Shown here piece by piece: positions 41,811-53,698 of a stretch of 64,000 nucleotides of DNA (position 1 is the stretch's first letter; each line of letters starts with the position of its first letter). The position numbers and the translations under genes were made by a program. Below the pieces are notes generated by a model. It made no database searches, was not told the DNA's origin, and saw nothing but the letters and a program-made list of their open reading frames with translations. This DNA is from Myxococcaceae bacterium. GTDB taxonomy: Bacteria > Myxococcota > Myxococcia > Myxococcales > Myxococcaceae. The DNA is taken from assembly GCA_016793095.1 (NCBI GenBank), contig JAEUJQ010000043.1, positions 1 through 64,000 on the forward strand. The letters are read 5' to 3'.

Positions 41811-42848
41811 ATGACCCGCTCCGCCCTCGCCCTCGCCCTCGTCGCCGTCACCGCGCTCGCCGCCGAACCGGTCCCCGGCCCGAAGCTGCGGCTCGTGAAG
41901 GCCCGCGAGATGAAGTCGTCGTCGAAGGAGACCGTGACGGGTCAGCTCTTCCCTTCCCGCATGCTGCCGATGGGCTTCGAGGTGGGCGGCCGCCTCGCCA
42001 CCTCGAAGGTGCAGAAGGGCGAGGTGGTGAAGGCCGGGCAGCTGCTCGGGTCGCTGGACACGGAGATCGTCGATGCGCAGGTGGCGCAGGCCGAGGCGGG
42101 CGTGGCGCAGGCCGAAGCGGTCGCGGGCCTCGCTGCCGACGTCGCGAGCCGCAACGAGAAGCTGAAGGCCGAGGGCAGCGTGTCGGACGTGCAGAACCGG
42201 CAGGCCGACGTGAGCTCGAAGCAGGCCCAGGCCGGGCTGGCGCTGGCGAAGGCGCAGCTCGCGCAGGCGCGCGCGGGCCGCAAGCGCCACGAGCTGAAGG
42301 CGCTCTTCACGGGCACCGTCGTCGATGCGCCGGACACCGTGGGCAACATGGTGGGGCCGGGCAACCCCGTGTACGTCGTGATGCAGCTCGACCCGCTCAC
42401 GGTGAAGATCACCGTGCCCGAGCACCTCAGGAGCGCGGTGAAGGCCGGCCAGAAGGTGCGGGTGGAGTCGGTGGGCGGTGGAGCGTCGTCCGACGAGGCG
42501 ACGGTGAAGGTCGTCATCCCCTCGGCTGATCCGCAGACGCGCCGAGTGCCGGTCGAGGTGAGCGTGCCCAACCCGAAGGGTGACTTCGTCGCGAACACCC
42601 TGGCCCGCGTGGTGCTGTCGGTCGGCGAGACGCGCAACGCGTACATCATCGCCTCCACCGCCATGATGAGCGCGGGCGGCGACCACGTGTACGCCGTCGG
42701 CGCGGACGGCATGTTGAAGAAGGTCTACGTCACCGTGCTCGAGCGCCGCGGGTTCGAGGTCGTCGTCACCGCGCCCGAGCCCCTCGACCAGCTCGTGGAC
42801 TACCCCACCGGCGCCCTCGTCGAGGGCACGAAGGTCACGCAGCGCTGA
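41811..42848 (+). CDS. RND efflux periplasmic adaptor (membrane fusion protein)
   Basis: 345 residues with a signal peptide (ALALALVAVTALA). The lipoyl/barrel-sandwich halves (VGGRLATSKVQKGEVVKAGQ and GTVVDAPDTVGNMVGPGN) flank a helical hairpin rich in Ala, Gln and Glu (residues about 85-155), followed by beta-barrel segments. This is the HlyD/AcrA-type adaptor that joins the inner-membrane pump to the outer-membrane channel. Next in line is the pump gene after 21 bases. Confidence 0.93.
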   Translation: MTRSALALALVAVTALAAEPVPGPKLRLVKAREMKSSSKETVTGQLFPSRMLPMGFEVGGRLATSKVQKGEVVKAGQLLGSLDTEIVDAQVAQAEAGVAQAEAVAGLAADVASRNEKLKAEGSVSDVQNRQADVSSKQAQAGLALAKAQLAQARAGRKRHELKALFTGTVVDAPDTVGNMVGPGNPVYVVMQLDPLTVKITVPEHLRSAVKAGQKVRVESVGGGASSDEATVKVVIPSADPQTRRVPVEVSVPNPKGDFVANTLARVVLSVGETRNAYIIASTAMMSAGGDHVYAVGADGMLKKVYVTVLERRGFEVVVTAPEPLDQLVDYPTGALVEGTKVTQR

Positions 42849-42869
42849 CGCGTCGCCCGAGGATCCTCC

Positions 42870-45800
42870 ATGACGCTCTCTGACCTCTCCATCAAGCGGC
42901 CGGTCTTCACGACCATGATGTCGCTGGCGCTGCTGGTGCTGGGCCTGCTGGGCCTCTCGCGCCTCGGCACCAACCTGTTCCCCGACGTCTCGTTTCCCTT
43001 CGTCGCCATCACCACCGTCTACCGGGGCGCTGGCCCGTCGGAGATCGAACAGCAGGTGACGAAGCCGCTCGAAGACGCCGTGGCCGGCATCGGCGGCGTC
43101 GACTCGATTCAGAGCATCACGCGCGAGAACCTGTCGCTGGTGTTCGTGCAGTTCAAGCTGTCGGTGCCGCTCGACCGCGCAGTGCAGGAGGTGCGCGACA
43201 AGGTGGCGGTGGTGCAGCAGGTCTTGCCCCGTGACGTCGACGCCCCGAAGGTGGCGCGCATCGACTTCGGCGCGGCGCCCATCGTCACCTACGCGGTGTC
43301 GGCCACCCTCCCCTCGGCCCAGCTTCGGCAGCTGCTCAAGGACAAGCTCGAGCCCGCGCTCTCGCAGGTCGATGGCGTGGCCCAGGTGCGCATCATCGGC
43401 GGCGACGTGCGCGAGATCCGCGTCGACATCGACCTCGACAAGGCGAAGGCGGCGGGGATCGCGCCCGCGCAGATTGCCGAGCGCATCGGCATGGAGAACG
43501 TGGACGTGCCCGCGGGCCGGCTCGACCTCGGGCCCGCCGAGCTCAACGTGCGCTCGCTCGGCCAGTTCAAGGACGTGGACGAGCTGCGCGCCCTGCCCAT
43601 CGTCCGGAATCAGACCGGCACCCAGGTGCGCCTCGACGAGGTCGCGACGGTGACCGACGGGGTGGGCGACCGTCGCTCCGTCGCGCGCCTCAACGGGAAG
43701 GACGCGGTGGTCGTCGAGGTCATCAAGCAGCCGGGCTCGAACACCATCGAGGTGTCACACGCGGTGCAGGCGAAGATGAGCGAGCTCACCCCGGTGATGG
43801 GCAACGGGTTCGAGCCGTCGCTCATCATCGACAACTCGAAGGTCATCGAAGAGAACACGCACGAGGTCTGGGTCGCGCTGCTGTTCGGCGGCCTGATGGC
43901 CATCGTCATCATCCTGCTGTTCCTGCTCGACGTGCGCGGCACCACCATCAGCGCCCTCGCGCTGCCGACCTCGGTGCTCGGCACGTTCTTCACGATGTAC
44001 CTGCTCGGCTACACGCTCAACCAGATGACGCTGATGGCGCTGTCGCTGGCCATCGGCCTGCTCATCGACGACGCCGTGGTGGTGCGCGAGGCCATCACGC
44101 ATCGGCTCGAGCAGGGTGAGACGCCGCGCGACGCCGCGTCGAACGGCACCCGTGACGTGTACCTCGCGGTGCTCGCCACCACCCTGTCGCTCGTCGCCGT
44201 GTTCGTCCCGGTCGCCTTCATGCCCGGCATCGTGGGGCAGTTCTTCAAGGAGTTCGGCTTCACCATGTCGGTGGCCGTCCTCATCTCGCTCTTCATCAGC
44301 TTCACGCTCGACCCGATGCTGTCGTCGCGGTTCTCGAAGCAGCGCCTGAAGGGCGAAGCCCACCGCGAGAACGTCGTCGCGCGCACCTTGCGGCGCTCCT
44401 TCGAGTGGATGGAGGCGCGCTACGGCGACCTGCTCGGCTGGAGCATCAGGCACCGCTGGCTCACCGCCGGGCTCGTGCTGGCGACGATGGGTGGCGCCAT
44501 CGGCGCGGCGGCCGTCGGCGGGCTCGGGGTCGACTTCGTCAGCCCCGAGGACCGCAGCCAGTTCATGGTGGACCTCAAGCTGCCCGAGGGGACGAGCCTC
44601 GCCGAGACGAAGGCCCGCGCCATCGCCGCCGAAGAGGTGATGCGCACGTACCCTGACGTCATCGACATGTACACGGTGGTGGGCACGTCGTCCGACGGCG
44701 CGGGCTCCGACGCGAACCGCGCGCGCATCCGGGTCATCATCAAGGGCCGCGACCAGCGCCAGCTCACGCTGGCCGGCATTCAGAACGACGTGCGCACCTC
44801 GCTCGTCGCGGCGCTCCCGTCGAGCACCGAGGTCGGCTTGCTCGACCCCCCCGTCATCGAGGGCCTGGGCGACTTCTTCCCCATCATGTTGTCGGTGATG
44901 GGCAACGACTACCAGCAGATCACCGCCGAGGCGCAGCGCGTGGCCGCCATCATGCGCGACTTCAGGGGCCCCAACGGCAAACCCCTGGCGAACGACGTCC
45001 GCGTTGCCGCGAACCCGCCCCGCCCCGAGCTGGCGGTCGTCATCGATCGCAGCCGCGCGAACGACACGGGGCTCACCAGCGGCATGCTGGGCATGCAGCT
45101 TCGGCTCGCGATGAACGGACAGCTCGCGGGCAAGCTGCGCCAGGAAGGCGTCGAGACCGACATCATGGTGCGGCTGTCCGAGAAGGACCGCGCCTCGCCC
45201 GAGGCCCTGCGCACCATGGACGTCTTCACGCCCACGGGGCTCAGACCCATCTCCGACGTCGCCGAGGTCTCCATGCGTGACACGCCGAGCATCATCGAGC
45301 GCTTCAACCGGCAGCGCCGCGTGATGGTGCAGGCGGCCGGCGTGGGTGAAGGCGGCGCGCTGGGTGACCTCGCGACCGCGCTGAAGACCCGCCTCGCGAA
45401 GGAGCCTCCGCCGCCGGGCGTCACCTACTATTACGACGGGCAGATCAAGTCGCTCGACGAGCAGAACGACGCCTTCGGCCTCGTCTTCGCCCTCGCCGGC
45501 ATCTTCGTCTACATGGTGCTCGCCTCGCAGTTCGAGTCCTTCAAGCACCCCTTCACCATCTTGATGTCGGTGCCGCTGGCCTTCGTGGGCGCGGTGCTGG
45601 CGCTGCTGGCGTCGGGCTTCAACGCGAACATGGGCGCCTTCATCGGCGTGGTGCTGCTGATGGGCCTGGTGACGAAGAACGCGATCCTGCTGGTGGACCA
45701 GGTGCTGCAGAACCTGCGGGCGGGCGACGACCTCGACACGGCCATCCTCAAGGCCGGCCCACGCCGGCTGCGGCCCATTCTCATGACGTCGGCGGCGATG

Positions 45801-46091
45801 GCCATCGGCATGGTGCCGACCGCCGTGGGGCGTGGCCAGGGCTTCGAGTTCCGCGCGCCCATGGCCATCACCGTCATCGGCGGCGTCATCTCCTCCACCT
45901 TCCTCACGCTCGTGGTGGTGCCGCTGATCTTCGCCGCGTTCGAGAAGCTGACGCCGCCGAAGTGGCGCATCGGCAAGGACGCAGCCACGAAGGCGCCGCC
46001 CGAGCCCGCGCCTCACGTGACACCGGTGCCTGGCATCGCGGCGCGCACCACCGAGCCCGACGCGGCGCAGCCCGCCGTGCGGCCTGTCTGA
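42870..46091 (+). CDS. RND efflux pump inner-membrane transporter (HAE1/AcrB type)
   Basis: 1073 residues, the normal RND length. N-terminus [20 protein letters not shown] with the [20 protein letters not shown] segment of AcrB-like proteins, and 12 membrane helices in two halves. The proton-relay Asp pair is in helix 4 ([15 protein letters not shown]). Large periplasmic loops follow helices 1 and 7. It uses the proton gradient to export amphiphilic compounds through the adaptor and TolC-type channel. The substrate set cannot be told from sequence. Confidence 0.95.
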
Positions 46092-46101
46092 CGAGACCGC
46101 C

Positions 46102-47607
46102 ATGCGAACGCTCCTCTTCGCCCTCCTCACAGCTGCGAGCCTCGCGGCGGCGCAGGTCTCGCCTGCTCTCACGCCGGCCGCGCCGCCGAGCACCTCGAGC
46201 GCGCCCTCCGGAGTTCAGCAGGCGCTCGCCACCGAGCAGGCCTTCGTCGCGGCGCGCCGGCAGGTGACGCTCAAGGAAGCCCTCACGCTCGCCGAGCAGA
46301 AGAACCCCGACCTGCAGGCCGCCCGCACCGCCATCGCCCAGGCCGCGGCGAAGACCCGGCAGGCGCTGGCCGTCGCGATGCCAGAGCTGTCGCTCTCGGC
46401 GTCCTACGTGCACACCAGCGTGCAGCAAGAGTTCAAAGCGAAGGAGTCGGCGCGCGCCCAGGGCGAGGCCACCGTCGGCCTCGTGCAGTACATCGGGAAC
46501 ACCTTCGGCTTCCCCATCACCGAGGCCCAGCTCGCTCCCCTGCGCACCCAGCAGGCCGAGGCCATCGCGAAGGTGGAGGACATCGTCATCGTCGCGCGGA
46601 ACTCGGTCTACGGGAACGTGCTGCTCTCGCAGGTCCTCTTCTCCCCCAACTTCTTCCTGCTGCCGGCGGCGTTCGAGGGCGGCGACGCGGCGAAGTTGAG
46701 CACCCTGGAAGCCCGCGAGCAGATCCTCCTGGCGGTCGCGCGGGTGTACCTGGGCCTCGAGGGCCTCGGCCAGCTCGAGCAGGCGGCGCGCGAGGCCGAG
46801 CAGGTGGCGCTCAAGCGGGAGCGCGACGCGAAGGCACAGGCGACCGTGGGCACCTCGACCGAGATTGCGGTGCTGCGCGCGCAGTCAGAGACGGCGCAGG
46901 CGCGCGCGACGCTCTCGGCGCTCTCGGGGCAGCGGGTGGCCCTGATGGCGATGCTCGAGGCGCTGGTGGGCGAGCCGGTGCGCCCGGTGGACGACGCGCC
47001 GACGCGCTTCGAGGTGACGCCCGGCCGCGACGAGGACACGCCGTGGGAGCGCTCGTACGCCCTCAAGGCCCAGAGCATCGGCGTGCGGATTCAGGAGCGC
47101 ATCTCGAGCGTGGACCGGCTCACGTGGCTCCCGACCGTCGTGGCGCAGGCCAAGGGCAGCTACAACTCGAACCGCGGCTTCGCTGGCACCAACTTCATCT
47201 TCGACGGCATCGTGGCCGCCCAGTGGTCGCTCTACGACCGCGGCGTGCGGTATGCCCAGTTGCGGGAGAACGACGCGAAGCTCGTGCAGCAGCGGGCGCA
47301 GCTCGAGGGCGCGCGCGCGCGGGCCAGGGCCAACTGGATTGGCGCGAAGACGAACCTCGACGCGGCCATGGTGGCCCTGCAACAGGCCGAGGCGCAGGCG
47401 GCCCTGGCGACGCGCGCACAGAAGCAGGTCGGCGCCGCCTACGAGGCTGGCCTCACCACCTCGCTCGAGGTGAGCGACATCGACAACAAGCGCTTCCTCG
47501 CGGCGTCGTCGGCCGCGCAGTCACGCGCGCAGCTCGAGATTCGCAAGGTCGAGCTCGCCGCCGCCGAGGGCCGGCTCGCCACGCTGCTGGGCCTGCCCGA
47601 GAACTGA
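46102..47607 (+). CDS. TolC-like outer-membrane efflux channel
   Basis: 501 residues with a signal peptide (LLFALLTAASLAAA) and a Pro/Ser-rich spacer. Two outer-membrane efflux protein units are seen: VTLKEALTLAEQKNPDLQAA near residues 54-73 and a second long helical half ending in GLTTSLEVSDIDNKRFLAAS. Large Ala-rich heptad helices fit the TolC tunnel. It completes the tripartite pump encoded by the two preceding genes. Confidence 0.92.
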   Translation: MRTLLFALLTAASLAAAQVSPALTPAAPPSTSSAPSGVQQALATEQAFVAARRQVTLKEALTLAEQKNPDLQAARTAIAQAAAKTRQALAVAMPELSLSASYVHTSVQQEFKAKESARAQGEATVGLVQYIGNTFGFPITEAQLAPLRTQQAEAIAKVEDIVIVARNSVYGNVLLSQVLFSPNFFLLPAAFEGGDAAKLSTLEAREQILLAVARVYLGLEGLGQLEQAAREAEQVALKRERDAKAQATVGTSTEIAVLRAQSETAQARATLSALSGQRVALMAMLEALVGEPVRPVDDAPTRFEVTPGRDEDTPWERSYALKAQSIGVRIQERISSVDRLTWLPTVVAQAKGSYNSNRGFAGTNFIFDGIVAAQWSLYDRGVRYAQLRENDAKLVQQRAQLEGARARARANWIGAKTNLDAAMVALQQAEAQAALATRAQKQVGAAYEAGLTTSLEVSDIDNKRFLAASSAAQSRAQLEIRKVELAAAEGRLATLLGLPEN

Positions 47608-48056: not shown

Positions 48057-49343
48057 TCATTCGCAGGGAATGATGACGAACTCGACCCGGCGGTTCAGCT
48101 CGCGGCCTTCAGGCGTCGAGTTGTCGTCGAGCGGCAGCTCCGAGCCATACCCCTTCGCGACGAGGCGCTTCGACTCGATGCCCTTCGAGATGAGGTGGTC
48201 GACGACGGCCTGAGAGCGCCCCGACGACAGCTTCAGGTTCTCGGCGGCGCTCCCCTTGCTGTCGGTGTGGCCCTCGACCCGGACGCAGAGCGACGGCCGG
48301 TCCTGGAGCGCCTGCACCACCTCGGCGAGGAGCGGGTCGGACTTCGGCAGGATGGTCGTCTTGCCGAAGGCGAAGTGGATCTTCTGTTTGATCTCGATCT
48401 TCTTCGAGGTGACGACGACCTCCCGGTAGGTGGGGCACCCGCCGTCGTCCTTCTTGCCGAACTTGTCGGGGCAGGCGTCGACGCGGTCGCCGACGCCGTC
48501 GCCGTCGCGGTCAGGACAACCACCGGCACTGTCTGGGCCCTTCTCTTTCGGGCAACCGTCGCGCGCGTCGGGCACCCCGTCGGCGTCGTCGTCGGGGTCT
48601 GGACACCCGTCGTCGTCCTGAAAGCCGTCTTTGTCCTCCGGCTCCGAGGCGCACCGGTCGTCTGCGTCCGGCACCCCGTCCCGGTCGCGGTCAGGCGGTC
48701 CGTCAGCAGACTTTGAAGCACAGCCGTCTGGCTCGGTGCCGGCGGCGTCGGGGCAGGCGTCGGTCTCGTCCGACACGCCGTCTCCATCGCGGTCGGCGGG
48801 CTCCGCTTGCGTGGGGAAGAACTCGGCCGACAGCCCGATGCCCAGCAAGCTCGCGTGGTAGCTGTCGAAGTCAGGCAGGGCGCCGAACTGGAAGACCTGC
48901 TGGAGCCGCACGTGCACGCCGAACCAGATGGGCATCGACTCGTTGAAGCGGAAGAGCGCGCCCGCCGAGGGGACGAGCCCCAGCTTCGGGCCGCCCGTCA
49001 TCGCGAGCTGCAGCCCGACGTCGAGCCACGGGACGACGAGGGCCCCTCGCATGGGTCGCTTCACCCTGGCGCCGGCGCCGAACCCCAACACCGAGCCCGC
49101 CCCACCGACTGGCGAGTTCGCCGCAGGCGTCAACACCGTGTAGGCGAGCTGCGCCTCGAGGTCGAAGAAGGGCAGGACCTGCCAGATGCCAGACGCCTGG
49201 GTCCCGAAGCCGACGCTGAAGTACCTGCTCTGGGGTTGAGAGACGGCGAAGGCTGGCCCGAGATCGAGCCGCGCACCGAAGGGCTCGGCGTGGACCGTCA
49301 CCGCACCGACAGACAGCAGCAGCGCTGGGAGGAGTCGTCTCAT
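48057..49343 (-). CDS. OmpA-family protein with thrombospondin type 3 repeats
   Basis: 428 residues. Signal peptide (LLPALLLSVGAVTVHA), an N-terminal eight-strand-like barrel region (about 20-185), then five or so Asp-rich calcium-binding repeats (DRDGDGVSDETDACPD, DRDRDGVPDADDRC, DPDDDADGVPDARDGC). It ends with an OmpA peptidoglycan-binding domain (VRVEGHTDSKGSAAENLKLS, RRVEFVII). It links the outer membrane to the cell wall with a calcium-stabilised stalk. The start overlaps the stop of the upstream TPR gene by 4 bases, so it is the last gene of the operon. Confidence 0.93.
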   Translation of the reverse strand: MRRLLPALLLSVGAVTVHAEPFGARLDLGPAFAVSQPQSRYFSVGFGTQASGIWQVLPFFDLEAQLAYTVLTPAANSPVGGAGSVLGFGAGARVKRPMRGALVVPWLDVGLQLAMTGGPKLGLVPSAGALFRFNESMPIWFGVHVRLQQVFQFGALPDFDSYHASLLGIGLSAEFFPTQAEPADRDGDGVSDETDACPDAAGTEPDGCASKSADGPPDRDRDGVPDADDRCASEPEDKDGFQDDDGCPDPDDDADGVPDARDGCPKEKGPDSAGGCPDRDGDGVGDRVDACPDKFGKKDDGGCPTYREVVVTSKKIEIKQKIHFAFGKTTILPKSDPLLAEVVQALQDRPSLCVRVEGHTDSKGSAAENLKLSSGRSQAVVDHLISKGIESKRLVAKGYGSELPLDDNSTPEGRELNRRVEFVIIPCE

Positions 49344-50428
49344 GGTTGGCTCGTCTTGAAGAGGGCCGCGAGGAGCTCGGCGCGGCGCCGTTGTGTCGTG
49401 TCTCGCTGCGCGAGCTGGCCGAACTGGGCGGCCAGGGTCCGCGCACCGGCCACGTCACCCGTCTTCGCGAGGATGACGGTAGCGGTGAAGAGCGCGCGGG
49501 GCGTCGCGGGAATCTGTTCGTAGAGGCGGTCGACCGCGGCACGGGCTCGCTCCAGATGTCCCCGCTCGAGTTCGACGGAGGCAAGGGAGAGCGAAGTGGC
49601 GACGTCGGGCCCAGCGCTCAGCGCGCTCCGGAGCTCGCGCTCCGCTTCGTCGAGGCGGCCCAGGTCCAGGTAGGCCTCGCCCAGGCGCCGTCGAAGCGCG
49701 GGAGGGGCCTCGCGGCGGAGCTGCTGCTCGAGCGCGGCCAACGCGAGCTGGGGCCTGCCGAGCTGCTCGGCGGCGTCGGCCATCGACTCGACGAGCACCG
49801 GGTCCTGATGCATCGACAAGGCGCCAGCCATGAATTGCGCAGCGCGCTCGGCCTGACCCATTCGGAGCAGCGCCGTCGCGTAGCCGCGCGCAGACTCGAG
49901 GCTGAGGTCTCCGGCGGTGACCACCTTCTCGAAGAGGGCGAGGGCCTCGGGGTCCTTCCGCTCCTCGAGGTCGAGCGTGGCGAGCACCCGAGCGCTGAGG
50001 GAGTGCGCCGGCGCTTCCCGTCGGGCGATGTCGAGGTCGTTGCGGGCTGCCACGAGGCGGCGCCCGTCGATGGCCAGGCGTGCGCGCGCGGTGAGCAGCG
50101 TCGCGCGGTCAGCGGCGCTCAGGCCTGCCTGGTCGAGCAACAGCCCGAGCTGCAGCGCCAGGGTGGTCTTCTCGGCGGTGCTCTGCGGGAGCGCACCTTC
50201 GGCGACGAAGGCCGCGCGGGTGAGCACAAGCTCGTTCGTGTGCGCCCGTCCGAGGGCGCCAACGAGTGCTCCCGTCTCGGCCTGCGCGAGGGCAGTCGCG
50301 GTGTCGTTCTTCTCGCGCGCAGCACGAGCGGCCTGCCAGTGCTCGACGCCGCGAGCGGGGGCTTCACGCTGGCAGCCAGGAGCCAGCACCACTCCGCCCA
50401 GGACGACCGACCTCAGTAATAGAGCCAC
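49340..50428 (-). CDS. TPR-repeat lipoprotein
   Basis: 362 residues from the GTG at 50428, giving a lipoprotein signal (VVLGGVVLAPGC). Upstream in-frame sequence overlaps the tail of the previous gene and looks non-coding. The mature chain is made of TPR-like pairs (YATALLRMGQAERAAQFMAG, YLDLGRLDEAERELRSALSA). It overlaps the upstream gene by 16 bases and the OmpA gene by 4, so it is strongly coupled to both. Probably a periplasmic scaffold for a surface complex. Confidence 0.82.
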   Translation of the reverse strand: MALLLRSVVLGGVVLAPGCQREAPARGVEHWQAARAAREKNDTATALAQAETGALVGALGRAHTNELVLTRAAFVAEGALPQSTAEKTTLALQLGLLLDQAGLSAADRATLLTARARLAIDGRRLVAARNDLDIARREAPAHSLSARVLATLDLEERKDPEALALFEKVVTAGDLSLESARGYATALLRMGQAERAAQFMAGALSMHQDPVLVESMADAAEQLGRPQLALAALEQQLRREAPPALRRRLGEAYLDLGRLDEAERELRSALSAGPDVATSLSLASVELERGHLERARAAVDRLYEQIPATPRALFTATVILAKTGDVAGARTLAAQFGQLAQRDTTQRRRAELLAALFKTSQP

Positions 50429-52548
50429 ACCAACCCTGGCTGCCCCGCAGAACCCGACCCGAATCCTCCGCCAGTGCACCCATTCGGAGATGAGCCACCA
50501 GAGCCCGACCCCGTGGGAGCGAGCGGCGCAATTCCTCCAGGGGTCGGCGGGGGCTGGTTGTTGTTGACCGCGATCCCAGTGCCGCCAGTCGAACCTGTGA
50601 AGGTGACCGCAGTACCACTTCCGCTGCCCGCCCCACCGGCTCCACCTGGGGCGGCAGCGCAAGCCGAGCTCCGGCTGCCACCTGCTCCGCCGCCGCCTGA
50701 GACCAGCGTGACTGCTCCGACGACGACCGTCGAAGTCCCACCAGACCCTCCGCTGCCCGAGCAGCCCGACGGGCCAGCGCCCGCAGCCCCGGGGCCACCC
50801 ACAGTAATGGACAGGGTCGCTCCAGAGGCGACCGTGAAGATGCCTTCGGCGTAGCCTCCACTACCGCCACCCCCGCCGGGATAGTACTGCAGGTTCGTGC
50901 AATCGATGACCGTGTTGCCGCCACCACCACCGCCGCCCCAGGCGCGGGCCCAGACCTTCGTGACGCCAGTGGGCAGGTTGAGCGTGAACGTACCCGCGGT
51001 CCGATAGATGGCGACGTTGCTGAAGCCCGCCGCCTGATCGACCTCGAAGATCTCGAAGGCATCGACGCGCGTCGTCCCGATGCCAGTCAAGTTCGTGCCG
51101 ACGCACGGCTTGATGTAGCGGGTGCCGGTCGGGAAGTTGTTGTTGGCCCCGCCCTCCGAGGTGACACGCCCGACGAACTGGGTCCAGGTGGTGGCGTTGA
51201 GCGCCGCGGCGGCGACGTTGTTGGCGATGAAGGGAACGCATCGCGTGGTACCCGCGAGGAAAACCGACGCTGGCCCCTGCAGCGGTTGCTTCGCGGCGTC
51301 ATAGGCGATGAAGCCCGCCCAGAAGGTGCCAAGAAAAGTGCCGCTGGTGGACTTCGCCTTGATGCGCCCCTCGTAGACCTTCGTCGGGTCGACCTGGATG
51401 AAGTCGGTGCCCCACACACCGACGATGCCTGTGGAGGCGGCGACGTTGCCGTAGGCAAAGTCGAACGAGCCGTCTCCCTCTGCACTGTCCATCGTGTTGG
51501 CGGTGACGCTCATCGGCGTGCCCGTCGAGGTCGTCGTCCACTGAGCGGGGCTGCTGTCGAAGAGGAAGAGGTTTCGGCCGTTCCCACCGCCGCCCGCGCC
51601 GGCTGCGCCGTTGCAGACGTAGTTGGTCCCCGACGCCGAGGTGAGGCGGACGCCGCCGTTTGCGCAGTTCATGCCAGCCGCCTCGGCAACCACCGCCACC
51701 GACTGCCCTGCTGTCCCCGTCGGTCCCGCGGCGCCGTTGCAGACGTAGTTGGTCCCCGAAGTCGAGGTGAGCCGCAGGCCGCCGGTCGCGCAGTTCATCC
51801 CAGCGGTCTCCGTCGCCACCGTCACGGACTGCCCGGGCGTTCCCTGCATGCCCGTCGCGCCGTTGCAGACGTAGCTGGTGCCCGACACCGAGGTCAGTCG
51901 CACGCCGCCGTTCGCGCAGTTCATGCCGGCTGGCTCGGTCATGGTGGTGACGGACTGCCCGGCGGGCCCCGTCGCAGAGCCGCAGGCCCACTGGTTCGAC
52001 GCGTTCCACACGAGCACCTGCCCCGCCGTGCACGACGGCAGCGAGATGACGTTGTTCGAGTCGATGGTGACGCCGTTGCCTGCCTGGTAGCCGAACGACG
52101 GTGACAGCCGGCCGTTGACGAGCAGGTCCTGCGAGTTGACGCGGATGCCTGTCGCATCCACCGTGCCGCCCCTGACGTTCTTCGCCGTCAGCGCCCAGGG
52201 CACCGAATTGATGAGCTGTCGGGGCACGAGCGCCGAGCCGTTCACCGAGATCTCGAGGTAGCGCGAGCCCGCGGTTGAGCCGTCAAAGACGCTGCCGGGT
52301 ATCGCCGTGCTCGCCCCGAGCGTGGTCGCGTACAGACCGTCGGACGTGAGCATCACCATCTGTTGCTCGGTCCAGAGCTGGCTGCCGCCAGACGCGCTGT
52401 CGTAGAGGCTGAAGGTGAGCGACACGGTGCCCGTCTCTGGCGTGCCGTTCGCTCGAAGCAGTCGGCCCGAATAGCCCAGCCGGTCGGGGACCTGCGCGAA
52501 GGCGAGGCTCGCGAGAAGCACTCCCGCCGCGACGACGTTCTTGTTCAT
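50413..52548 (-). CDS. Secreted repeat protein with glycine-rich tip, tail-fibre-like
   Basis: 711 residues with a signal peptide (VVAAGVLLASLAFA). The N-terminal part (about 20-190) resembles phage tail-fibre or collar segments (LINSVPWALTAKNVRGG). Then follow three 42-residue repeats carrying AGMNCANGGVRLTS and YVCNGA, which resemble DUF7151-like units. The C-terminal 200 residues are a glycine-rich domain (VWARAWGGGGGGG, GGPGAAGAGPSGCSG) like the polyglycine tips of phage receptor-binding proteins. It probably acts as an adhesin. RBS GGAGGG precedes the ATG at 52548. Confidence 0.83.
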   Translation of the reverse strand: MNKNVVAAGVLLASLAFAQVPDRLGYSGRLLRANGTPETGTVSLTFSLYDSASGGSQLWTEQQMVMLTSDGLYATTLGASTAIPGSVFDGSTAGSRYLEISVNGSALVPRQLINSVPWALTAKNVRGGTVDATGIRVNSQDLLVNGRLSPSFGYQAGNGVTIDSNNVISLPSCTAGQVLVWNASNQWACGSATGPAGQSVTTMTEPAGMNCANGGVRLTSVSGTSYVCNGATGMQGTPGQSVTVATETAGMNCATGGLRLTSTSGTNYVCNGAAGPTGTAGQSVAVVAEAAGMNCANGGVRLTSASGTNYVCNGAAGAGGGGNGRNLFLFDSSPAQWTTTSTGTPMSVTANTMDSAEGDGSFDFAYGNVAASTGIVGVWGTDFIQVDPTKVYEGRIKAKSTSGTFLGTFWAGFIAYDAAKQPLQGPASVFLAGTTRCVPFIANNVAAAALNATTWTQFVGRVTSEGGANNNFPTGTRYIKPCVGTNLTGIGTTRVDAFEIFEVDQAAGFSNVAIYRTAGTFTLNLPTGVTKVWARAWGGGGGGGNTVIDCTNLQYYPGGGGGSGGYAEGIFTVASGATLSITVGGPGAAGAGPSGCSGSGGSGGTSTVVVGAVTLVSGGGGAGGSRSSACAAAPGGAGGAGSGSGTAVTFTGSTGGTGIAVNNNQPPPTPGGIAPLAPTGSGSGGSSPNGCTGGGFGSGSAGQPGLVWLYY
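51608..51985. repeat. Three 126-bp tandem repeats
   Basis: The same 12-base block TTGCAGACGTAG begins at 51611, 51737 and 51863, exactly 126 bases apart. It encodes YVCN within each 42-residue unit of the adhesin-like protein. The copies differ at scattered positions, so the expansion is not very recent. Confidence 0.85.
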
Positions 52549-52561
52549 TTCGACCCTCCGG

Positions 52562-53698
52562 TTACCTGTGAAGTCCCTTCAGTCCGCCGACATTGCGATG
52601 CGCTGAATTCGAAGCAGGAGGCCCGCCCGGCTCCTCGCCCACGGCGCCGCTGTGGCGATGAGTCGCGTTGCTCTGCCCGACCGCAGGCGAGGACGAGAGC
52701 CCGCCACCCGCAGTCTCGGCGAGCGGTGGGGTCGTCAGCACCACGGTCCCTCCGTCAGGGAGCGTGCAGGTCAAGCCGTTGCACCGCGACTCGCAGCCTG
52801 GCGTCGCGTCTCCATCGACGTCGAAGAAGCCGGTGGTACAGGGCCCGCGACCGCATCGGCCCGAGACACACCGGGCGCTCGCGTTGAGCGGTGGCGCGCA
52901 GACCGTTCCACACGCGCCGCAGTTGTTGATGTCGTCCTGCACCCCGGCGTCACACCCGCTCGGGGTGATGCAGGTGCCCTGGCTGCAGACCCGGCCAGCG
53001 GAGCACATGACGCCGGTGCACCTCGTATCGGTGCAGACTCCGTTCTCGCAGGTGCTGCCCATCTGACAGGTCATCGCCCCACAGGTCTCCGGGCGACAGG
53101 CCCCCGCAACGCACGTCTCTCCGCTCGGGCAGCGCACGTTGACGCAGCGCCGGTCCTCACACGACACGTCGTTCACGCACACCTGGTTGGGGGCGCAGTC
53201 CGCCATCGGGCAGTCGTTCTTGAAGCACTGGCCGGTAATGCAGGTCGTGGATGAGGGGCACTGCACGCCGACGCACGCGACGTCAGTGCACACCCCGCTG
53301 ACGCAGACGCTGCCGGGAACGCACCGCGTGGCGCCGCACGACTCGGGCTCGCAGACGCCGGCGCGACAGCTCTGCCCGGCGGGACACGTGACGTTCACGC
53401 ACAGACGCTCCTGGCACGCGACGCTGTTCACGCAGACCTGATCCGACGCACAGGTCGCAGAGTCGCAGCTTCGAGGGAGACAGCGGCTGCCGGCGCAGGC
53501 CTGGTTGGTCGGGCACATCACGCCGCACGCGCCGCAGTTGGTGTTGTCGAGCTTCGTGTCGACGCAGGTCGAGCCGCACTGAGTCGTCCCCGTTCCGCAC
53601 GGGCTGCCCGCGTCTTTGCCGAAGTCGGTGACGGACTGGAGGCAACTCAGGCTCGATGCCGCCAGCAGCAGGAGCCCGAAGGCACCACGTGGGTTCAT
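52562..53698 (-). CDS. Cys-rich lipoprotein with tandem CxxGxC-type units
   Basis: 378 residues from the ATG at 53698 (GAGGA 6 bases upstream). A lipoprotein signal (LLLAASSLSC) precedes a chain with about 45 Cys in repeated units such as CGACGVMCPTNQACAGSRC and CVNVTCPAGQSCRAGVC, which suggests a rod of small disulphide modules. Similar myxobacterial proteins are often mislabelled as tryptophan synthase alpha chain; no TIM-barrel motif is present here. It is the first gene of the operon, 13 bases before the adhesin-like gene. Confidence 0.8.
   Translation of the reverse strand: MNPRGAFGLLLLAASSLSCLQSVTDFGKDAGSPCGTGTTQCGSTCVDTKLDNTNCGACGVMCPTNQACAGSRCLPRSCDSATCASDQVCVNSVACQERLCVNVTCPAGQSCRAGVCEPESCGATRCVPGSVCVSGVCTDVACVGVQCPSSTTCITGQCFKNDCPMADCAPNQVCVNDVSCEDRRCVNVRCPSGETCVAGACRPETCGAMTCQMGSTCENGVCTDTRCTGVMCSAGRVCSQGTCITPSGCDAGVQDDINNCGACGTVCAPPLNASARCVSGRCGRGPCTTGFFDVDGDATPGCESRCNGLTCTLPDGGTVVLTTPPLAETAGGGLSSSPAVGQSNATHRHSGAVGEEPGGPPASNSAHRNVGGLKGLHR

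Follow-up and report, generated by a model that had tools for sequence, protein, structure and literature searches.

A 64,000-nucleotide stretch of DNA from a Myxococcaceae bacterium (contig JAEUJQ010000043.1, hereafter the window) carries on its minus strand a cluster of four genes, the second of which encodes a relative of the mosaic adhesive trimer (MAT) surface fibres of Bdellovibrio. We consider it reasonably probable that the cluster encodes a surface mount for this fibre, in which the barrel of an OmpA-type protein (gene 4) holds a cysteine-rich surface lipoprotein (gene 1), whose tip in turn docks a swappable MAT-like fibre (gene 2). The genome carrying the window is 8.8 Mb in size and 98.65% complete, the window being its contig 68, and its relatives are myxobacteria, including Myxococcaceae bin.172 and Myxococcales UBA5297.

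The gene cluster and its MAT-like fibre

All four open reading frames and their spacing were confirmed as the initial annotation had listed them. Gene 1 (52562-53698) is separated from gene 2 (50413-52548) by 13 nucleotides, while gene 2 overlaps gene 3 (49340-50428) by 16 nucleotides and gene 3 overlaps gene 4 (48057-49343) by 4 nucleotides (ATGA). A sigma-70-like promoter, matched by consensus only, lies close upstream of gene 1, and the ATG of gene 2 is preceded by a GGAGG-like ribosome site.

Linkage was surveyed in 60 relatives of the genome carrying the window, and three-gene subsets of the cluster recurred. The order of the window without the TPR gene (Cys-MAT-OmpA) was found at G007:C38, and without the OmpA gene (Cys-MAT-TPR) at G015:C7. 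OmpA-Cys-MAT was present at G004:C174 and G027:C76, OmpA-Cys-Cys-MAT at G007:C270, and OmpA-Cys at G021:C142 and at G002:C386, where the contig ends thereafter. Pairs of Cys and MAT genes occurred in G014, G037, G038 (four times), G056 and at G007:C273; in G014 and G056, a divergent OmpA-type gene of the gene 4 barrel family stands next to the pair. The linkage is real and conserved, not a matter of chance, and supports the earlier proposal of one gene cluster for an outer-surface assembly; by it, the proposal withstood the refutation that the initial annotation had set, a lack of synteny in any related genome.

Gene 2 encodes a protein of 711 residues, composed of a Sec-type signal peptide, an N-terminal beta domain of about 120 residues (residues 19-140; 52129-52494), three DUF7151/GPxGQSV-type repeats (residues 190-322; 51583-51981; DUF7151 at 9.9e-9) and a glycine-rich C-terminal tip (50416-51000). 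The tip matched Gly_rich_2 (PF21722, 5.8e-10) as well as phrog_863 'tail' (2.4e-12), which bears out the initial description of an adhesin with a C-terminus like that of phage tails. The N-domain had no Pfam match but was homologous to NCBIfam NF053851, Bdello_MAT_N, at 1.5e-8, with 34.6 bits for the whole protein and 39.1 bits for the N-domain alone, below the curated cut-off of 60 bits. No protein of the window's own genome matched NF053851 above that cut-off. When the N-domain was aligned with 16 homologues from related genomes, all 17 matched Bdello_MAT_N (best 2.4e-14), and no other NCBIfam family was matched by more than one of them. The features that mark the broad MAT superfamily, namely significant N-domain homology right behind the signal peptide and a constant N-terminal end with mosaic tips, were found in gene 2 and its homologues. 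Since its N-domain is homologous to MAT but scores below the subfamily cut-off, gene 2 is, by these comparisons, a MAT-like relative in Myxococcota outside the curated Bdello_MAT_N subfamily. The initial view that no described system has such a composition does not hold for the fibre, which belongs to the MAT-like superfamily.

Genes with this N-domain numbered 85 in 24 of 61 genomes, with numerous paralogues differing in their C-termini; their tips included Gly_rich_2, GH43/32-like, Fibrinogen_C, F5/8-C and phage Collar domains of Pfam. A narrow contig search with the N-domain alignment returned seven loci, all in deltaproteobacterial/Myxococcales metagenome-assembled genomes. The domain was absent from 50,697 phage records and from plasmids, sequence searches gave no solved relatives, and a Foldseek search of the N-domain model against PDB and viral models gave no match below 1e-3. 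Two further MAT-N genes of the same genome (G000:C34:27341-27694 and G000:C53:555-968) lack the kind of upstream lipoprotein described below.

The partner lipoprotein and its proposed docking motif

Gene 1, the proposed anchor and stalk of the fibre, encodes 378 residues including 51 cysteines. Its only Pfam match was sub-threshold, and it scored 34.2 bits against NF041328 (MXAN_6577-like cysteine-rich protein), under the 100-bit cut-off. The signal sequence has a hydrophobic core with a lipobox, SLSC, that is non-canonical at -3, and several homologues possess good lipoboxes; gene 1 is probably a secreted cysteine-rich lipoprotein despite this imperfect lipobox. Of the disulphide rod on a lipid anchor initially proposed, the cysteine-rich stalk stands (repeats at residues 34-305, 52784-53599, also recognised by BLAST to partner lipoproteins) and the anchor is probable, though weakened by the SLSC sequence. 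What that description had overlooked is the key conserved element of the protein, a motif in its C-terminal region (52565-52708), which is the proposed MAT-docking segment.

The motif is common to the cysteine-rich partners and reads roughly ASGxSxG...QxSAxHxNxGVLGExTP...NxGGF. A hidden Markov model (HMM) of it gave 20 matches in the 61 genomes. A MAT-N gene adjoins 17 of them, another is truncated where its contig ends, and the remaining two, in G056, stand without a MAT gene beside them. Because most of the proteins behind the model had been selected for adjacency, the 17 of 20 measures specificity and is not an independent discovery. A search of 195 genomes across the phylum confined the matches to the same 10 genomes. 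The two exceptional genes in G056 (L136:7090-8163 and L171:3800-4702) encode cysteine-rich motif lipoproteins, and the same genome also has MAT genes without a partner.

In G036, G010, G029, G041, G058, G006 and other genomes, the MAT gene is preceded by a short lipoprotein without the cysteine stalk and with a similar C-terminus. The likeness between the motifs of cysteine-rich and plain partners is weak individually and significant for the groups, as reciprocal HMM tests against about 400 background proteins gave p=5e-5 and 4e-7; a profile-profile comparison aligned the two motifs in register, weakly (P 0.033). A lipoprotein-like gene preceded the MAT gene in 19 of 79 cases, compared with 30 of 472 in the background (p=7e-6). 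Gene 1 is, as judged from its sequence, the long-stalked form of these MAT-preceding lipoproteins. A different situation was seen in G042, of the same order as the window's genome, where none of the 22 MAT-N genes (L189-L202, L211-L220) has a motif lipoprotein directly upstream, and these fibres must be anchored in some other way.

Where partner and MAT gene share a reading frame, as they do at some loci, the intervening stop could be read as a residue and the two proteins modelled as one tethered chain. The read-through chain of one such pair, L128 from G015, was modelled by AlphaFold2 with 36 alignment rows, 7 of them paired. The predicted local distance difference test (pLDDT) was 90-98 for the MAT strands, and one strand of the partner motif, HTNFGVLG (residues 26-33), was also confidently placed (mean of 91 for residues 21-30); the remaining partner sequence was disordered, with most of residues 1-16 and 37-65 below 50. 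The best structural alignments were to single MG/immunoglobulin (Ig)-like domains, those of complement C3, alpha-2-macroglobulin and CrdA (Z 6-7.8), and nearly all of them started at about residue 24 and ended near residues 190-200. Since they begin there, the partner strand would sit where the first strand belongs in a sandwich whose other strands come from the MAT domain. The model thus predicts that a single motif strand docks, in the manner of a donor strand, into the MAT N-domain. The most conserved columns of the motif (G351 and G354 of gene 1) fall on this strand, whose equivalent in gene 1 is HRHSGAVG (residues 347-354; 52637-52660).

The OmpA-type barrel and its linked lipoproteins

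Gene 4 matched OmpA_C (PF00691; 1.4e-21, 77 bits against a cut-off of 27.2) and TSP_3 (5.1e-6). In addition, its N-terminal 180 residues were predicted to form 8 strands with a mean pLDDT of 90.3 and a predicted template modelling score of 0.81. The nearest structures to this model in Foldseek were OmpA, OmpW and NspA, with E about 1e-5 to 2e-4 (OmpA 1bxw, 1.2e-5), and no solved relative of the barrel was found by sequence. Gene 4 is a member of the OmpA family, with a predicted 8-stranded outer-membrane barrel (residues 22-175; 48819-49280), TSP3 calcium-type linker repeats (residues 183-305; 48429-48797) and a peptidoglycan-binding OmpA_C domain (residues 324-418; 48090-48374). It had been taken at first for an OmpA stalk only, the barrel in its N-terminal third being overlooked, and for a protein that grips peptidoglycan by its calcium-type repeats, a role that would fall to the OmpA_C domain and not to TSP3.

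A profile built from seven such barrel domains found 29 members in 19 of the 195 genomes. For 29 barrel genes with space left downstream on the contig, the next gene encoded a lipoprotein in 20 cases by an automatic rule (background genes, 40 of 474; p=7e-14), or in 22 when judged by eye. The linked lipoproteins carry Big_5 with Ice_binding domains, eleven TIG repeats, a combination of EGF, TIG and Gly_rich_2, or cysteine-rich stalks, and most of them share a CxxS-Phi-xxF-like peptide right behind the lipid cysteine. This tether peptide is CLQSVTDF in gene 1 (53621-53644), and CVDSLVAF, CIDSINRF, CAESINRF, CQDSVNRF and CGQQLVEF in others. The strict pattern was present in 17 of 25 barrel-linked lipoproteins, in none of 18 MAT partners scored as barrel-less and in none of 60 other lipoproteins. 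Two of those 18, L134 and L135, do have a divergent barrel gene together with a related RVVxF peptide, and the split is therefore conservative.

The same barrel family is paired in several families of the phylum with Big_5 and Ice_binding lipoproteins that start with CGQQLVEF or a similar sequence (L267, L274-L278, L280, L281). At L265:2789-7541 and L279:3-4521, the gene after a cysteine-rich lipoprotein gene and a barrel-OmpA gene encodes a lipoprotein that combines EGF repeats and TIG with a Gly_rich_2-like tip; a single protein thus unites the stalk and the tip that are split in the window. L263:3100-4832 has a barrel gene and a short lipoprotein that combines the tether peptide with a docking-like C-terminus, with neither a cysteine stalk nor an adjacent MAT gene, and this lipoprotein bridges the two partner types. 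Threading of the lipoprotein through the barrel in the manner of RcsF was dropped, as RcsF contacts the periplasmic domain of OmpA (PMC7553776).

Gene 3 has a GTG start, a lipobox (LAPGC) and matches to several TPR models, with the TPR proteins PrsT and PilW/Tgl as profile neighbours. A single syntenic homologue was found, in G015, with 27% identity along almost its entire length (E 1.6e-11). On this conservation it is a weakly conserved accessory, the least conserved member of the cluster, and the TPR 'scaffold' of the initial annotation is not supported. Facing the cluster on the plus strand of the window is an RND-type efflux operon (41811-47607; AcrB family at 4.6e-245, and an outer-membrane efflux protein).

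Proposed assembly, alternatives and known systems

In the proposed assembly, gene 4 would form its 8-stranded barrel in the outer membrane and be tied to peptidoglycan through OmpA_C. Gene 1 would be held at the barrel by its lipid and by the residues CLQSVTDF, which may associate with gene 4, and its disulphide-rich stalk would be displayed beside the barrel. The C-terminal beta-strand of gene 1 is predicted to complete the Ig-like N-domain of gene 2 and so to retain the fibre on the cell, where the glycine-rich, phage-tail-like tip could bind its target, be it prey, kin or matrix. From locus to locus, the mount would stay the same and the tip would be exchanged. Gene 3 probably aids assembly, though this is a guess.

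Several observations weigh against this assembly. The exact four-gene order was found only in the window's genome among those surveyed, and what recurs is the linkage of Cys, MAT and OmpA genes. Many MAT-N genes have no such partner, among them the 22 of G042 and the two others of the window's genome, while G056 has two motif lipoproteins without a MAT neighbour. The tether pattern was drawn after the sequences had been inspected, which makes its p-values optimistic. A barrel contact is not a given here, since E. coli RcsF contacts the periplasmic domain of OmpA and not its barrel (PMC7553776). The docking model represents a homologous pair that was tethered artificially into a monomer, neither the pair of the window nor a trimer; it had 7 paired rows only, its strand pairing was deduced from pLDDT, DSSP and the ranges of the alignments, and its VIA-align Z values were below 8. 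The only control for docking was the unplaced remainder of the same peptide, which is internal but weak.

Gene 1 and the MAT-like fibre might instead form a separate two-part adhesin, with gene 1 held by its lipid alone and gene 4 a general OmpA-type tether that is merely co-transcribed. Many MAT-lipoprotein pairs without a nearby barrel gene (L128, L131, L132, L133, L138, L178-L209) agree with this. We nevertheless think it rather unlikely, as the strong association of the barrel family with lipoproteins holds throughout the phylum (22/29) and the tether peptide follows the presence of the barrel. A kin-recognition or outer-membrane-exchange pair of the TraAB type, with a cysteine-rich receptor and an OmpA-type partner acting between sibling cells, is suggested by the shared plan of a cysteine-rich TraA stalk, a TraB barrel with an OmpA domain and an operon overlapping by 4 bp (PMC3325183, PMC6626042), and TraB was indeed the best NCBIfam match of gene 4 (164.5 bits). 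This match covers only the TSP3/OmpA part of TraB (gene 4 residues 245-426) and is far under the 700-bit cut-off, and Pfam and NCBIfam searches of genes 1 and 2 found no PA14 domain or MYXO-CTERM, so that such a pair appears improbable. Least credible of all, and largely refuted, is the idea that gene 2 goes back to a phage tail fibre, as a remnant or by domestication, and has unrelated neighbours: its glycine-rich tip does match phage tail families, but the lack of its N-domain in phages and plasmids, its Sec-type signal peptide and the repeated linkage with lipoprotein and OmpA genes all speak against it.

The mount proposed for the window may be one case of a wider, undescribed modular display system of Myxococcota, to which we give somewhat less than even credence. 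An OmpA-type barrel would be dedicated to one surface lipoprotein through the peptide behind its lipid, and the lipoprotein would bear either an adhesive domain of its own (ice-binding-like, TIG or EGF/glycine-rich) or a donor strand mounting interchangeable MAT-like fibres; in that case, the same anchor would also supply the surface element that is missing for the Bdellovibrio MAT fibres. The cluster names a concrete and testable anchor candidate for MAT-like fibres, with a defined strand, in bacteria noted for their predatory and social habits. The short peptide that associates surface lipoproteins with one barrel subfamily also bears on how lipoproteins are displayed at the outer membrane. 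If right, the proposed assembly would be a naturally occurring mount into which fibre tips can be plugged.

MAT fibres have been reported to be trimeric fibres of the cell surface, conserved at one end and diverse in their tips, and to serve predatory Bdellovibrio bacteriovorus as recognition proteins for the prey surface (Caulton et al. 2024, PMC10769870); the surface element that holds their conserved N-domain was stated by the discoverers to await identification (PMC10769870). We found no description of such an anchor in the literature searched, subscription papers and preprints lying outside it. Gene 2 resembles these fibres in its signal peptide followed by a beta-rich N-domain of about 130 residues with significant homology, and in the variable C-terminal tips of its relatives, some of them phage-like or lectin-like. 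In contrast to them, it scores under the curated cut-off, occurs in Myxococcota and has no S74 tip, and MAT-like genes are accompanied here by a gene for a motif lipoprotein and in some cases by one for an OmpA-type barrel.

The predicted docking recalls donor-strand complementation in chaperone-usher fimbriae, where an incomplete Ig-like domain is completed by a strand of another protein. A partner strand would likewise complete an Ig-like domain in the L128 pair, as predicted from the tethered monomer, but there is no usher, chaperone or pilin homology and the donor is the C-terminus of a lipoprotein. With RcsF-OmpA of E. coli, the cluster would share the binding of an OmpA protein by a surface lipoprotein, although RcsF-OmpA serves stress sensing and makes its contact through the periplasmic domain of OmpA (PMC7553776). 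Gene 4 has the 8-stranded barrel and OmpA_C of the OmpA family, and differs in its TSP3 linker and in the coupling of its barrel subfamily to a lipoprotein gene. TraA/TraB of Myxococcus xanthus have in common with the cluster a cysteine-rich surface stalk, a partner with a barrel and an OmpA domain, a translationally overlapping operon and a related TSP3-OmpA C-terminal part (PMC3325183, PMC6626042). Unlike TraA/TraB, the cluster has no PA14 or MYXO-CTERM, its stalk protein has an N-terminal lipoprotein-type signal, its recognition tip would be on a separate MAT-like fibre, and the gene 4 barrel was not matched to that of TraB. What sets the cluster apart from both the MAT and the TraAB systems is its dedicated lipoprotein with a predicted donor strand.

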